DNA from: Botryococcus braunii
Lineage: Eukaryota > Chlorophyta > Trebouxiophyceae
DNA length: 12,500 bases
Direction: 5' to 3'
NCBI GenBank assembly: GCA_002005505.1
Contig: KV908357.1
Location: 426,344 to 438,843 of the forward strand
Made by a program: the position numbers and the translations under genes. Below are positions 1-11,170 of the stretch, in pieces. The notes beneath the pieces are model-generated. The model was given only the letters and a program-made list of their open reading frames with translations. It ran no database searches and was not told the DNA's origin. Each line of letters opens with the position of its first letter. The first letter of the stretch is position 1.

Positions 1-2632
1 TCAGGGTACTGGAAGGAGCTGTCAGGTCTAATGCTGGAGCATGGGCTGCTGACAGTCTGATTCTGCGTGCTCCACTGTGCAATGACACCACTGGCCAGCA
101 CACCATGGGTTGCTGCTGTGCATTTGCCCTGGTAAGTCTTCAGGGTATGAGAACTGCTGAGGCTGGTCAGGGAGAACTGCCATTCCCACCCGAGTAGCTC
201 CTCGAATGTGTTCCACAAATTGGACATCTCTGCTCTCTCTCCAGATCCCCCTCCCATATAGACACGGTATGCCTTTGACACTGGAGAGTAACCAGTGAAC
301 ATCCCAGCCACAGCCTTTGGTGCAAATGCCCCCTCTGCTGATCAGGAACGTGCACAAATGTAAGGCATCCCCATGTGCGCAGCAAGGATACATCTGGTTT
401 ATATCCCATGAACATTTCACAGGGAGATAGGGGCCTGCCTGTGCTGGGTCCCATATTTAGGAGGGTGCAGGCTGTCTCCAGGGCTTCCTTCCACATAACA
501 GGGCTTGATGCAGCAAAATTGAGGAGGGTTCTGGTGCGCTCCTTGATGGTTCTGTTCGCTCTCTCAGCAACTCCATTCTGCTGAGGGGTATATGGGGCAG
601 ATGTCTCCAGCTTAGTGCCCAGGGATGCACAAAATTCCTTGAACTTGGCATTTAAGAACTCTGTGCCTCTGTCACAGCGGATGCACTTCACTGTAGTTTC
701 CTTCTCAGTTTGCCAATACAAAATTAGGTCTCTGACAACAGCTCCAATTACATCTTTTGACTTCACTGGCAGCACTGCCTTCCACCCAGATGCCTCATCA
801 GTTACAGTTACCCAAAAGCGTTCCCCAGTAATGGCTACTGGTGATATGGGGCCCACAGTGTCAATGTGGATTCTGTCAAGGGGTTTCTCAGCAGGTCTAG
901 AGCTTTCACCAAATGGGGGACGTGCATGCTTCCCCTCAATGCAAGCTTCACAGTACTTAGGACACTTTTCACAAGGGGACAATAAGGTGTCTAGGCCAGT
1001 AACCAGTTGCTCACTGCTCAGGCGTTTCATCCATGGATCTCCTGGGTGTCCCAATCTGCTGTGCCACAGGAAACGTTTGGCACAGTCATGGCTTTGAGCT
1101 TTGGAGCATTTCTTCTTCAGAGCAGCTGTTACTGAATAAGGAACCTTCACTGGTGCTACTGGGAGGCAGTTATGGATATAATACAGGCCATTCTCTGGTT
1201 TCACAGGCATCTGCCAGCCACTCGGTCCTGAGACAGCAGTGAATGCTCCCAGTCTATCTGTAAAGAACCGGATTCCATCACGCAGAGCAGCAGATACTGA
1301 TAAAATATTGGTGGTGGCTGAGGGAACACACTGGACATGATGCAGCCACACTGGAACATGCTGAGAGGACATGAGACATGCTGACCCAGTAGCAACAATA
1401 CCCCCAGTGGCATCAGATGTAGCGAGCAGCAGTGGAATAGGGTGGTCATGTACTGTAGGGGCATGCAGCAGGGAAAGGTTGTTCACAAGATGTACAGACG
1501 CTCCACTGTCCACAAGCCACGACTGTTTGGACTGTTGGTGTCTACTGCCATCCAGCACATTATATGATACCACGTATGGCATACCTTCTGAGGGAGGAGA
1601 AGGTGGGCCTGGAGGAGGGTGCAGCAGTGGGAACGCTCCAGTGCCTGGGAATGCATGCTGCACGCTTGGAGGTGGCTGAGGTGCTCCAGGAAACTGCCCT
1701 TGGGGCCACATGGCAGCCAGTTGTTGTACAGCTGCAACCACATTGCGTTGTGTCTCTGCATCCCTTTGGCGTTTGCGGCAGTCTCTCCAAAAATGGCCTT
1801 TCCTGTGGCAGTAGTTGCACGTGCCTCTCACTTCTCCCCTTGATTCTGTGTCTGCTGGCCGTCTGGAGGGAATGGCTCCGCTAGTAGAAGGGGCTGGGGC
1901 TGCCTCTAGTTGAGCAGGCATTGCTTTCATCACCATGGCAGGCTGTTCTCCATCATCGTTGTAGCCAGATGCCTCTACTGTGGTGGAAATGAGAGCTGCC
2001 AGCTCATCCAGGGGGTAAGCTACTGCAGTGGGTAGCAGCCCGGGAGGATTGGCTGCAGCTGGCAGTCCCTGCACTATCTGAGTGGCCACATGACCATCCA
2101 AGAGGTCATGTCCATTGCGTTTCAAGCAGCTTTTGAGATTTATCATTCTGGACACATACTGAGAGATTGTTTCTCCACGTCTCATCCCTCTTGACATTTC
2201 CTTCAGCCAGTCTGCATTGGCTTGAGTGTTGTAACCACCAACAAATTTCTTGCAAATGAACAGATATGCATCATATGCCGACGGCTTACTTGACACTTCC
2301 CCTAACCATTCCTCTGGAACTGACTCATACAGCAGAAGCATTGCAGCCGCATTATGGATAGTCCCAGGCATGGCTGACTGAATGGCAGGAAAAGAACCCT
2401 TAGCACTATTGGCCGCAGTAAAGGCATTGTCCCATACCACAAAATTTGTGCCATGACGATCCAGCTTAATATGCACCTTGACTTGGGTGGCTATGACCTT
2501 GGGAAGTACATCTCCCTCACCCTTTGATGTACTGGGTGTACATGGCTGTCGTGTGGGGGACGATGTAGACGCCTCCTCTGTTGTGGGCTCCTCCTCTGAT
2601 GGCTCCCTTGATTTAGATCTCTTCCTCGCCAT
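1..2632 (-). CDS. copia gag-pol polyprotein, 3'-truncated by the window and frameshifted
   Basis: One open frame of 821 codons runs from ATG 2632 to 167. The N-terminus is basic then acidic. Residues 50-215 form a copia gag domain, followed by a CX2CX4HX4C zinc knuckle (C272, C275, H280, C285) for RNA binding. A proline-rich stretch (316-350) leads to the aspartic protease motif DSGA at 375-378. The GAG-pre-integrase zinc domain has H524, H529, C561 and C564. The integrase core shows D591, D654 and E690, i.e. DX62DX35E. After about residue 767 the frame loses similarity. The expected integrase C-terminal sequence continues in a second frame from a G5 run (329-333) and in a third from a CT repeat (233-241), where SRDVQF, a typical copia motif, appears. 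The third frame meets a stop at 28-30. The start ATG has A at -3 and G at +4. The product would make the virus-like particle and integrate cDNA; this copy is probably defective. Confidence 0.93.
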
Positions 2633-2648: not shown

Positions 2649-3173
2649 TCAGTCTTCGTTAGGTTCTGAACGCTGCGAGTCCCCGTCTTCGTCTCCGTTA
2701 TCTGGGTCCGTGCACCACTCCTCTGGGCTGAATCCTTTTCTGCTGCCCAAAAGGGAAAGTAGGAAGTCCTCGTCAAGAGTGGCGAGAGCACACTCCACTG
2801 CTGTGTAGGCTGCCCTTTCTTCCCAGTATTCGGGTTTGCTGGGTCCTCCGATCTGTTGTAGATGCCGTTCAAATAATGCTCGCGTGACGAAGCCTGGATC
2901 CGCGTTGATGAATGAACACTCCCACGCAGTTACTATGTAGGCTGGGTATGCAGAGAATCGTCGTCTGAACCACTGAGGCTGTTCGACTTTACCCAGTCCG
3001 TACGCGCGGCTGACAAAATCCTTCACCAGGAATGCTCGTTCTTCTGGTGTTCTCGGTCCCGTGTCTCCTCCAGCTCGCCTCAGGCTATCGTATGTAGGTG
3101 GTGAAGGAGGTGGGGGTCTAAAAGGTCTTTTACCGCCGGTCGACATCCTTCCGCTCTGCTTCGTTCGTCCCAT
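2649..3173 (-). CDS. retrotransposon extra ORF with histone H3 tail-like N-terminus
   Basis: This is a 174-codon ORF between the primer site and gag; its stop is 16 nt before the gag ATG, in a different frame. ATG 3171-3173 has A at -3 and G at +4, and an in-frame TGA lies upstream. Residues 1-17 read MGRTKQSGRMSTGGKRP. Aligned without gaps to the H3 tail ARTKQTARKSTGGKAP after Met removal, R2, T3, K4, Q5, R8, S10, T11, G12, G13, K14 and P16 are identical. A1, T6 and A7 are replaced by G, S and G, and K9 is replaced by M. Gly at position 2 should allow Met removal. Residues 18-27 are proline-rich. Residues 42-153 look like a mostly helical globular domain that I do not recognise, with W68, W84, W117 and W153. 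Residues 154-174 are very acidic. Most known copia elements lack such an ORF. A chromatin-mimic role is inference; a matrix-like or regulatory protein is the alternative. Confidence 0.8.
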   Translation of the reverse strand: MGRTKQSGRMSTGGKRPFRPPPPSPPTYDSLRRAGGDTGPRTPEERAFLVKDFVSRAYGLGKVEQPQWFRRRFSAYPAYIVTAWECSFINADPGFVTRALFERHLQQIGGPSKPEYWEERAAYTAVECALATLDEDFLLSLLGSRKGFSPEEWCTDPDNGDEDGDSQRSEPNED

Positions 3174-3189: not shown

Positions 3190-3217
3190 GCTTTCAGTTG
3201 CCCAGCTCAAGAGTTGG

Positions 3218-3230
3218 TGGGCCCATAACC
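3218..3230 (-). other. primer-binding site, half-tRNA type (initiator tRNA-Met anticodon arm)
   Basis: The minus strand reads GGTTATGGGCCCA directly next to the LTR end. Its complement, TGGGCCCATAACC, is the conserved anticodon stem and loop of eukaryotic initiator tRNA-Met, with the CAT anticodon inside it. Drosophila copia uses this internal region after the tRNA is cut, not the tRNA 3' end. The position between the LTR end (…TGTACA) and the first ORF is as expected. The match to the tRNA is from memory of the conserved arm. Confidence 0.8.
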
Positions 3231-3254
3231 TGTACAATTCTGGGCGTAATGATC

Positions 3255-3400
3255 CCTGTATGTCCCGGCACGAAGGGTGTTAAGCTCGGTCGGGTCTCTT
3301 GCTGTGTGTAGGAGAGCAAGCAGAGCCCGACTATGTGTTGACACTTGTGGCAACTGATCAGAGATAAGCACCCGGAGTGCTCTTTCAGTCCCAAACAAGT
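3255..3400. repeat. 146-bp exact direct repeat, copy 1
   Basis: By eye this stretch is identical to 3583-3728 over 146 bp, with an offset of 328. Flanking bases differ on both sides. This copy lies 24 bp from the LTR inner edge, so it probably covers the end of the LTR transcript leader. Confidence 0.9.
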
Positions 3401-3582
3401 CATTACATTGCTTCTTGCTCTCTCTCAATGCCAAGGAATCCAAACTCCCTCTTCTACGCATCGACAGATAGTCCGCATTACCATTGTTCGATGAGCCAAG
3501 CATTAGCAACATTCTAATACTCTTATCTAGACCTCTTCCTAATCAATTGTTCATACAAGTCACACTAAGATGCAGCACTTTA

Positions 3583-3728
3583 CCTGTATGTCCCGGCACG
3601 AAGGGTGTTAAGCTCGGTCGGGTCTCTTGCTGTGTGTAGGAGAGCAAGCAGAGCCCGACTATGTGTTGACACTTGTGGCAACTGATCAGAGATAAGCACC
3701 CGGAGTGCTCTTTCAGTCCCAAACAAGT
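3583..3728. repeat. 146-bp exact direct repeat, copy 2
   Basis: This is the second identical copy, separated from the first by 182 bp of unrelated sequence. It may be an internal LTR duplication or a remnant of a second LTR of the same family. Complete identity points to a recent event. Confidence 0.9.
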
Positions 3729-3826
3729 GCCGAGCCCTTCATGCCTGCTGCCTATATCCTTTCTAGCAAGAACGCGTCAAATTGCATTACTCTCTTTCTC
3801 CTAAGTGGAATCAGTCCAGATCAATT

Positions 3827-3852
3827 ATGGCAGAACTCTAGAGTTCTGCCAT
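3827..3852. repeat. 26-bp perfect palindrome
   Basis: The 13-base arm ATGGCAGAACTCT is followed at once by its exact reverse complement, with no spacer. The centre is CTCTAGAG. It could be a factor-binding site in the LTR promoter, a footprint at the LTR edge or a target-site hotspot. Confidence 0.9.
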
Positions 3853-4680
3853 CCATTACTCAACCTCTGAGATTGTTCACAGTGATTGCTTTAGAGAAGC
3901 CTGGCCACTATTACTCTTCTGAGGGAAAGTCACTAATTGTTCTTTCACTATTATAACACATAGCCACTAGTACTCAAAATATGTGCCCTGATCTTAGATA
4001 ATGCAACATTTGCATATTTTGACTTGACAATTGCATATTTGTTCAAACAATTTGTTACACTCAGCTGATCAATTGCCCTAGGGCCAACATGACCCTAGGG
4101 AAAGGCCTTCATGACAATGACCTCATGGATGTGATTAAATCAATGAGAAACGTTCGAGGGCTTTAATAAAGGAAAGCCAATACCTTCTGAGGGACATATA
4201 CAAATACGTATCGCAAACTTTTCAAAGAAGTTTACATTTATCGCTGACAGCCCTAGCGGCCCAGACACAGCGGCCCAGACACGCCCTAAAATCAACACAC
4301 GCTTTCCTTGCCATTAAATACAAAATCACTCTAGGTTCGTTAAGATATGTAAGTCATTCACACAACTGTCACATCATCATGTGAATACTTTACTGACGCA
4401 GGCAGCACACATTTAATTAACTGCGTACGTGACATGAACATGCCTACGATTACCCAGATATGTGCGGGTTGTTCTGCTGCATGCAAAGCGGAGGAATTCA
4501 AATATCACATTTCATACGTTTATGCCACACCCGGGCTTGGTGATGTGCACGGGCGTGTGTGGATCTCGAGCGAGGATGCTCCGACGGAGACCGAAAAAGC
4601 CTGAACCCCAAGGCTTTGAGTTCCTAATCATTAATGAATATTCCCAGTACCTCACACCACCTCCCCTCTCCACCCTTTAC
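3852..4680. other. AT-rich non-coding stretch
   Basis: No convincing ORF, exon or RNA gene was found here. The only structure seen is an exact tandem duplication of the 14-mer AGCGGCCCAGACAC at 4255-4282. This may include the outer end of the LTR and the flanking target DNA. Confidence 0.6.
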
Positions 4681-5482: not shown

Positions 5483-5534
5483 GGCCTGTCTCTCCCTCTC
5501 CCCCCCCCCTCTCTCTGTTCGTGTGTGTGGGTGT

Positions 5535-5536
<2 letters not shown>

Positions 5537-5613
<77 letters not shown>

Positions 5614-5636
5614 GGGGGGGGGGGTGGGGGCGGGGG
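5537..5636. repeat. (GT)38 followed by G11-T-G5-C-G5
   Basis: There are 76 bases of uninterrupted GT (5537-5612), then T, then 11 G (5614-5624), T, five G, C and five G. A C10 run (5500-5509) lies just upstream. The alternating GT can adopt Z-DNA and the G runs can form a quadruplex. The array length may be altered by assembly. Confidence 0.95.
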
Positions 5637-5760
5637 CTGTGTGTCCTTACAAGGCGCGTATGCACGGGCACACCTATGCATGGGCATGTGCGCATCTGTG
5701 CGTACATCGTAGGCGTTCTTTTTCCTCCCAAGCGTGCCCAGCATACGCAAACCCACTCAC

Positions 5761-6332: not shown

Positions 6333-6639
6333 CTGCAAAAGACGGCTAGAGGACGAGAAAGAGGAATTGCTAAATTGACCCTGTCATATAAATGGCATGC
6401 TTCCGTTCCTACATTTCCCACACCCCAAACGAAGGGGGGAAATTATAAACAAAAAGAATACCGAACCTTAAAACAATAATAATAAAATGAAATAAAATAA
6501 AAAAACCCCACACAACTAAAAAAAAAAACACACGAACGGAAAGAGTGGCTAGGAAGTGCTCAGGTATATTCCCTGGGCGCCATAAAGGTGCACGCACGTC
6601 TTCCTGTCTCTGATATACAGGCACGTGCTGCACGACCCC

Positions 6640-7110
6640 TATCGGGGGATCGACTGTATGACCCCTGGTGAGACATTTCCTGCCTGACTGCAAGTGAGGA
6701 ATGTACTGCATGACCCAGTGGTTCGAGACTTACTTTATGACCCGTGGGGAGGGATGTACTGTATTGACCTAGGTGAGGGATGTACAGCATGACCCCTGGT
6801 GAGGAATGTACTGACCCCTGATGAGGGATATAGCACATAACAGCTGGTGAGGGATGTACTGTGTGACCCCTGGCGAGGGCTGCTCTGCATGACCCCTAGT
6901 AAGGGATTTACTTCATGCCCCCTGGTGAGGGATGTACTTCATAAATCCCTGGGGAGGGATGTACTTCATGACCCCTAGTAAGGGATTTACTTCATGGCCC
7001 CAGGTGACGGATGTACTTCATGACCCCTGCGGAGGGATGTACTGCATCGACCCTGCTGAGGGAGGTACCTCATGACACCTGGTGCGGGAGGTATTCCCTG
7101 ACCCTATTTC
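6640..7110. repeat. minisatellite, unit about 31 bp (GGGATGTACTGCATGACCCC type)
   Basis: About 15 diverged copies of a unit reading roughly GAGGGATGTACT-GCATGACCCCTGGT follow each other. A version with CCCCTAGTAAGGGATTTACT occurs twice, 79 bp apart (6892 and 6971), showing that larger blocks were copied as well. On the minus-strand gene it falls in a possible intron or the 3' region. Confidence 0.85.
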
Positions 7111-7245
7111 TTCAAAGACCATGTTCTTCTAAAAGACCGTAAATCCTGACCGTGAACCACGCGGCCTTCTTTTTCTGCCTGCTCTGTAATCAGTAATTGA
7201 GCGGTCGGTGATAACCGCGAGAAGACGACAGAAATTGCAATCGGT

Positions 7246-7780
7246 GACAGTCACTCCAGAACCGACGGCTGCTAGTGCAGTTGGAAGAAGTCACTCCAAA
7301 ACCGGGGCGGCTGCTAGTGCAGTTGGAAGAAGTCACTCCAAAATCGACGGCTGCTAGTGCAGTTGGAAGAAGTCACTCCAAAACAATGGCTGCTAGTGAA
7401 GTGGGAAGAAGCCCCTCAAAAACTCGCGGCTGCTAGTGCAGTTGGAAGAAGTCACTCCAAAACTCACGGCTGCTAGTGCAGTTGGAAGAAGTCACTCCAA
7501 AACGACAGCTGCTAGTGAATTTCGAAGATTTCACTCCAAAACCGACGGCTGCTACTGCAGTTGGAAGAAGGCACTCCGAAACCGACAACTGCAAGTGCGG
7601 TTTGGAGAAGTCACTCCAAAATTGAGGGCTGCTACTGCAGCTTGAAGATGGCAATCACTCCGACGTTTGCACGGCGCTTCGCAAAAGGCACTTAAAAGTC
7701 AAGGCTGCTAGTGCAGTTCGAAGAAGGCACTCAGAAACCTACGGCTGCTAGGGCAGTCAAAAGAAGGCACTCCAAACTCG
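7246..7780. repeat. minisatellite, unit about 43 bp (GGCTGCTAGTGCAGTTGG type)
   Basis: About 12 copies of a unit built from GGCTGCTAGTGCAGTTGG, AAGAAGTCACTCCAAAAC and a variable 3-6 base joint. Copies between 7262 and 7500 are nearly identical, while those nearer 7780 are diverged. The array ends 15 bp from the apparent stop codon of the minus-strand gene. Frames through it are repeat translations. Confidence 0.9.
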
Positions 7781-7794
7781 TGATTTCTTCTTCT

Positions 7795-11170
<3,376 letters not shown>

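Follow-up and report, generated by a model that had tools for sequence, protein, structure and literature searches.

Histone mimicry is already known from viruses and from host regulators. EZHIP (CXorf67/CATACOMB), a PRC2 inhibitor of placental mammals, carries the motif VRMR and is described as a natural inhibitor of the K27M type (PMC12713659), and G9a and GLP contain H3-like motifs that are methylated and then bind HP1 (PMC9768651). The H3K9M peptide inhibits Clr4 and, in the presence of SAM, binds the SET domains of Clr4 and G9a better than the wild-type peptide, which agrees with the statement of the initial annotation of this locus that H3K9M blocks H3K9 methyltransferases; the fission yeast chromodomains tested in that paper did not bind H3K9M (PMC5030085). 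Among parasites, influenza NS1 (ARSK) and SARS-CoV-2 ORF8 (ARKS) are listed in a review of histone mimicry (PMC10208167), the text of which contains no word beginning with transpos-, and the mimicry by ORF8 is disputed (PMC10833455). The geminivirus protein TrAP blocks the H3K9 methyltransferase SUVH4/KYP to escape silencing (PMC4606454), and the VANC proteins of Arabidopsis VANDAL transposons are transposon-encoded anti-silencing factors (PMC5735166, PMC10398659). The literature matches listed on histone mimicry, H3 N-terminal mimicry and transposons, as seen in part, include no transposon-encoded H3-tail mimic, and the initial annotation likewise knew of no copia example.

The window, which is the whole 12,500-nt stretch of Botryococcus braunii DNA analysed here, contains an open reading frame (ORF1) with the following features.
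2649 to 3173, minus strand: ORF1, an accessory protein with an H3-like tail, a Pro-rich stretch with PPTY, a body and an acidic C-terminus.
3123 to 3170, minus strand: H3-tail-like residues 2-17 of ORF1, GRTKQSGRMSTGGKRP, by sequence, shuffles and phmmer.
3144 to 3146, minus strand: codon for Met where H3 has K9; of the 72 distinct intact copies read from the clade, 71 have Met and one has Ile.
3090 to 3101, minus strand: PPTY motif (PPxY type), 14 residues beyond the Met, PP[TS]Y in 68 of the 72 copies.
2652 to 2693, minus strand: acidic C-terminus, DEDGDSQRSEPNED, from the ORF1 translation.

ORF1 encodes 174 aa; its N-terminus reads MGRTKQSGRMSTGGKRP, the translation starts MGRTKQSGRMSTGGKRPFRPPPPSPPTY, and the tail with its first codon spans 3123-3173. 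Against the H3 tail ARTKQTARKSTGGKAP, it is identical at 11 of 16 positions (R2, T3, K4, Q5, R8, S10, T11, G12, G13, K14 and P16) with no gap and in exact N-terminal register, as the initial annotation had reported and as re-reading of the minus strand at 2649-3173 confirms. H3 numbering omits the first Met, so that H3 position 9 is residue 10 of window ORF1. The motif at H3 positions 7-10 is GRMS rather than the methylatable Lys type, ARK[ST]. The 12th codon upstream of the Met is an in-frame stop, which makes this Met the likely start of ORF1; a stop without an intervening Met also precedes ORF1 in 65 of the 72 distinct intact copies, and an in-frame Met lies upstream in six. Pfam searches at E up to 1 gave no family for window ORF1, the histone fold (PF00125) included, and of four ORF1 relatives three had no match and one (P0003) a match at chance level. 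The AlphaFold model of window ORF1 (mean pLDDT 49) shows a low-confidence, unstructured tail followed by helices, and we judged it too poor for a fold search. The PPxY motif is of the WW-domain or late-domain type and is conserved in the clade. N-myristoylation of the MG start was considered and is disfavoured by the Arg after Gly and by the MA- start in other subfamilies.

The surrounding element has the following features.
3231 to 3958, minus strand: 5' LTR, 728 nt, TGTTATAAT...TTGTACA (TG...CA), delimited by the end of homology among subfamily A copies.
3255 to 3400, minus strand: 146-bp direct repeat within the LTR, copy 1, found by repeat search and common to other subfamily A copies.
3583 to 3728, minus strand: copy 2 of this repeat, identical to copy 1 and also in subfamily A copies.
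3215 to 3230, minus strand: putative primer-binding site GGTTATGGGCCCACCA, immediately following the LTR and exact in 76 of the 94 loci examined.
167 to 2632, minus strand: ORF2, a copia-type gag-pol frame by Pfam matches, starting 16 nt past the ORF1 stop.

Homology to other subfamily A copies stops at 3958 in 16 alignments and at 3959 in eight. A TG...CA LTR followed by a putative primer-binding site is the arrangement of a Ty1/copia element. The putative site is presumably similar to the anticodon arm of the initiator-Met tRNA, which would parallel the half-tRNA priming of Drosophila copia, and the ORF1 start codon lies 41 nt past it. ORF2 has, in order, a copia-type gag, a weak zinc knuckle, a gag-pre-integrase domain, an integrase core and an SH3-like domain. 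The Pfam matches above the cut-off are gag_pre-integrs (3.6e-10), SH3_retrovirus (3.6e-7) and Pol_BBD (1.8e-6), and those below it are rve (1.3e-7, just below), Retrotran_gag_2 (9.5e-4) and zf-CCHC_2 (0.23). Judged from this context, ORF1 appears to be an accessory ORF ahead of gag-pol in a copia-type element. No reverse transcriptase match was found in ORF2, the open frame of which ends before one, and no 3' LTR of this copy was seen, the DNA beyond the window reading N. The gag-pol frame stops shortly beyond the SH3-like domain, and further open frames lie nearby in other phases, so the window copy is probably defective. Elsewhere, the window contains long GT/CA and GA/CT microsatellites (5516-5643, 8104-8293, 8727-8944 and about 9.9-10.1 kb) as well as repeats at intervals of 26 bp (6611-7099) and of about 40 bp (7225-7819).

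We evaluated how well chance accounts for the H3 likeness, with shuffle and E-value figures for the window tail that are after the fact. In 2,000,000 shuffles of the 16 tail residues, 11 matches to H3 were never reached, and 10 matches were reached in 1e-6. A phmmer comparison of the first 24 ORF1 residues with PDB sequences gave histone H3 as the best match (E 0.0064, residues 1-19 on 1-19), and among the 128 PDB sequences at E up to 10 the best 60 are H3, its variants and H3-derived peptides. The whole 174-aa ORF1 reached an E-value of only 0.36 against PDB sequences, and the profile of 35 ORF1 rows reached 0.14. Because the window-tail statistics are after the fact and the whole-ORF E-values are weak, the decision falls to the relatives. 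The E-values of single tails are modest (0.0064 for the window, 0.19, and none up to 1) and would also fit an ordinary basic extension for nuclear localisation or nucleic-acid binding, in which the H3 likeness is a coincidence kept by descent; the N-terminus of ORF2 is basic too (MARKRSKSREPSEEE).

The host assembly searched, of 176 Mb, contains over 200 ORF1-type copies. In the ORF1 search, 150 of 801 candidates were scored and each of them matched, and the searches with P0003, P0008, P0009 and P0010 gave at least 150 overlapping rows each, so that all of these counts are lower bounds. Three jgi/Botrbrau1 proteins are identical to assembly copies (P0002 to L082, P0003 to L092 and P0009 to C287), which identifies the host as Botryococcus braunii, presumably of race B. 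Its conservation and its presence among annotated Botryococcus genes are the only signs that ORF1 may be expressed. The loci read here were picked as the best-scoring and most divergent copies and not at random. For the window's clade (clade 1), 90 loci were read; 78 intact loci were kept, 72 of them distinct. The 12 left out (L051, L052, L053, L055, L056, L058, L068, L069, L072, L077, L103 and L111) have no starting Met or fall outside 165-195 aa. The tails of this clade include MGRTKQSGRMSTGGKRP (subfamily A), MGRTRQSGRMATGSTR, MGRTRQSGRMSTGSARP, MARTRKTGRMSTGYKGP, MARKRQSGRMSTGGGRP, MARTRQTGRMSTGGSRP and MARTRQSGRMRAGA.

R2, G7, R8 and M9 (H3 numbering) each occur in 71 of the 72 distinct intact copies, and the clade thus retains what defines the EZHIP type, a Met at the target Lys with its adjacent Arg. 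The Met that the initial annotation had noted at codon 3144-3146 is therefore a property of the clade. K4 and K14, which it had described as kept, are kept in the window but not in the clade: position 4 is Lys in 25/72 copies and Arg in 47/72, with nothing else, and K14 is kept in 26/72 and lost in 46/72. A residue that is Lys or Arg in 72/72 copies is also what a basic extension would give. S10, T11, G13 and K14 are variable, and the number of the 16 positions identical to H3 lies between 5 and 12, with 12 in one copy, 11 in 18, 10 in nine, 9 in eight, 8 in six, 7 in eight, 6 in 19 and 5 in three, so that 22/72 copies share only 5-6 positions with H3. A motif pattern of the clade that allows Met or Lys at position 9 gave 236 matches and none when reversed, and Met is at position 9 in all 12 matches whose letters were shown. 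Because position 4 and K14 drift and Arg8 and Met9 each persist in 71/72 copies, the H3 likeness of the clade, as read from these copies, centres on K9 and not on K4. The initial annotation had proposed a selected H3 mimic in a copia-type element and had held that neutral drift of the tail in intact copies would speak against it; the K9-centred part stands, with R8 and M9 kept, and the K4 part does not, since K4, S10, G13 and K14 drift. Its suggestion that K4 readers steer integration fails on the Arg4 of 47/72 copies and on the position of the K4 equivalent in clade 2 (residue 7 or 8, not 5), so that the free ART-K4 end has no counterpart there.

Deeper relatives, at 41-45% identity, were found by a profile of 35 window-clade ORFs with the tail included. 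P0009 starts MAKKRTKQTARKTTNLNVPAR, and its tail contains KRTKQTARKTT. The tail of P0010, which comes from a 1,032-nt ENA contig and is 41% identical over 53% of the query, reads GRKRQTARKSTSSKR, with the motif KRQTARKSTSSK, which contains QTARKST. P0007 and P0008 (JGI contigs) have RTQTAQRRT where the relatives have the H3 motif. At the P0009 locus, ORF1 is flanked by a near-identical putative primer-binding site, GGTTATGGGCCCAC, and by a gag frame that by eye is copia-like. We read 22 loci of clade 2, comprising 20 short stretches, the locus of P0009 itself (L132) and one locus taken from motif matches (L137). KQTARKTT is present in 16/22 loci (15/21 without L137, which was chosen by the motif pattern and so was bound to match), one-residue variants in three, and broken or shifted tails in the other three (L128-L130), which are included in the 22 but are outside the 19 tails counted below. 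Lysine is kept at position 9 in 18 of the 19 tails with a motif window, and clade 2 equals H3 at the positions where the window differs from it, T6, A7 and K9. The distance from position 9 to PP[ST]Y is 13-15 residues in 33 of 39 aligned rows from both clades (the other six are anchored wrongly on MARK, and their spacing is unused) and 13 residues in 19/19 counted clade-2 tails. This near-constant spacing indicates that position 9 is homologous between the clades.

Across the genome, a DNA pattern of KQTARK[ST]T in which Ser may also replace Arg gave 362 occurrences versus 0 for the reversed pattern. The first 100 rows include two H3 genes, so at least two of the 362 are H3 genes, and the codons of L131, a short high-copy derivative, recur in many rows. 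L131 (G000:C29:750080-750400) carries the first 81 residues of clade-2 ORF1 in a 90-aa open frame, with the KQTARKTT tail and PPSY, and at least 28 rows are of this type; the derivative is perhaps a non-autonomous element still carrying the mimic. Among viral contigs, a pattern search for relatives gave 67 stretches, none of them confirmed.

Selection was assessed by pairwise Nei-Gojobori counts over ORF1 residues, in which pairs share changes and are not independent. For the 66 pairs between clusters, residues 2-17 have a dN/dS of 0.31, residues 2-13 one of 0.18 and the body (29-174) one of 0.185; pN/pS is 0.115 in residues 7-10 (H3 6-9) versus 0.348 in the body. Within clusters (494 pairs), dN/dS is 0.33 for residues 2-17, 0.39 for residues 2-13 and 0.13 for the body, and the core 7-10, with very few changes (on average 0.1 synonymous and 0.2 amino-acid changes per pair), has a dN/dS of 0.33 and a pN/pS of 0.342 versus 0.137 for the body. 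In subfamily A, dN/dS is 0.155 for the tail versus 0.108 for the body. The comparison of tail and rest proposed in the initial annotation thus gave a divided answer, with the core tighter than the body between clusters and looser within them. Silent variation is seen in the G7 and R8 codons, AGR/CGN switches included. On these counts, the Arg-Met core appears to be conserved over long times, and the tail in its entirety receives no special protection; the short-term counts show no protection of the core, and the looser tail within clusters is as a basic extension would have it. In clade 2, the octamer KQTARKTT has 11 DNA versions among 19 tails, with a pS of 0.68, a pN of 0.04 and a pN/pS of 0.06, which by this measure is strong constraint. 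Conservation through an RNA signal for packaging or priming near the primer-binding site would fit the 41 nt between that site and the ORF1 start and the R2 codon, which is CGA in 71/72 copies. The synonymous divergence of the tail rejects such a constraint, with a between-cluster pS of 0.51-0.56, near that of the body (0.64), and the pS of 0.68 in the clade-2 octamer, and we consider the RNA explanation largely refuted and very improbable.

The relatives speak against the basic extension. They match H3 better at T6, A7 and K9, where the window differs; shuffling the residues of the P0009 tail gives 7/8 of KQTARKST in only 4e-5 of cases, and shuffling those of the P0010 tail in 6.5e-5; and clade 2 keeps the non-basic Q5, T6, A7 and T11 through codon changes. 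We regard a coincidental likeness in a basic extension as rather unlikely. Because relatives found by a whole-ORF profile match H3 better, in the same register and with mostly silent codon changes, chance appears to be a poor explanation of the H3 likeness, and it is likely that ORF1 carries a real H3-tail mimic centred on K9. The 35 rows of the Met clade, one of them with Ile, group together (92/100) on a long branch in the ORF1-body tree, and P0009, P0007/8 and P0010, whose branch is very long, fall outside this group. Under midpoint rooting Lys9 would be the older state, the root being unsure.

The initial annotation had also raised the capture of the tail from a host H3 gene. The tail DNA is identical to four host H3 genes at 31-35 of 51 nt and to a fifth, odd H3-like gene at only 22 of 51, and we rejected this origin. 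One host H3 variant, L034 (G000:C224, around 266256-266850), has the tail ARTKQTARKSVGGNRPVYG and is non-canonical after residue 10, and L045 is another odd host H3 (ARTKQST). Searches of the host with Pre-SET, SET and SRA identified no SUV39/SUVH-type writer. Pre-SET had no match in the host, and the control query likewise had none; SET had 11 matches, four of which were fetched and two compared with PDB, the closest being NSD/SETD2 and MLL types; and SRA had four weak to moderate matches, with no SET exon seen by eye within 2.8 kb beyond one of them.

KQTARK[ST] also serves as a ligand of readers. The mimic could therefore act as a tether that binds H3-tail readers or importins for delivery to chromatin or the nucleus, without blocking methylation; the lysine retained in 18/19 clade-2 tails and the basic runs that precede the clade-2 motif fit such a role. 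The Met9 of 71/72 window-clade copies is non-methylatable, and the fission yeast chromodomains examined in PMC5030085 failed to bind H3K9M, and we consider the tether unlikely. The explanation that we propose, to which we give an even chance, is that the N-terminus of ORF1 mimics the H3 tail around lysine 9, in a methylatable form in one clade and in a K9M trap-like form in the window's. Against this explanation speak the looser tail within clusters, the variable S10, T11, G13 and K14 with the copies of low H3 identity, the RTQTAQRRT of P0007 and P0008, the modest E-values of single tails and the host searches that identified no SUV39/SUVH-type writer. In the Lys clade, an H3K9 writer could methylate KQTARKTT and H3K9me readers could bind it, in competition with nucleosomal H3. 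In the window clade, with Lys9 changed to Met, Ala7 to Gly and Arg8 kept, the tail would be a non-methylatable ligand of the SET domain of the H3K9 methyltransferase, and occupation of this domain would blunt silencing of the element. That the Met clade traps the enzyme in this way is possible but doubtful; we infer the binding by ORF1, the inhibition and the benefit to the element. More speculatively, an LTR element may have switched a methylatable Lys9 mimic to Met as a dominant trap, and PPxY may recruit a WW-domain ubiquitin ligase so that the enzyme is removed, a scenario that we advance tentatively.

The H3-like motif of G9a presumably reads ARKT, and a Lys motif of the G9a/GLP type belongs to the relatives of the window and not to window ORF1, its methylation there being putative. 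Like the automethylated, HP1-binding motifs of G9a and GLP, clade 2 has a comparable QTARKTT (PMC9768651). NS1 and ORF8 are also parasite-encoded and H3-like, but their motifs are shorter than that of ORF1 (PMC10208167). TrAP is a parasite protein that blocks an H3K9 methyltransferase; it differs in being another protein, and its abstract gives no H3-tail mimicry (PMC4606454). VANC shares with the proposal for ORF1 a transposon-encoded anti-silencing function, but its action is sequence-specific and apparently involves no histone mimicry (PMC5735166, PMC10398659). The window tail shares Arg-Met-Ser-Thr-Gly (H3 8-12) with the H3K9M peptide ARTKQTARMSTGGKA (PMC5030085), but unlike this oncohistone-type mutant ORF1 has Gly7, often Arg at K4, and a tail fused to an unrelated protein. 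If true, our proposal would make a family-wide transposon H3 mimic with Lys9 and Met9 branches a direct weapon in the arms race over silencing, and the two branches a natural K9M experiment over evolutionary time. EZHIP is, like ORF1, a non-histone protein with an Arg-Met H3-like motif (PMC12713659). It differs in that its motif mimics K27, is C-terminal and belongs to a host gene, whereas that of ORF1 is K9-like, N-terminal and retrotransposon-encoded; inhibition is shown for EZHIP only, ORF1 being known from sequence, and if the proposal holds, K-to-M inhibition also arose outside mammals.
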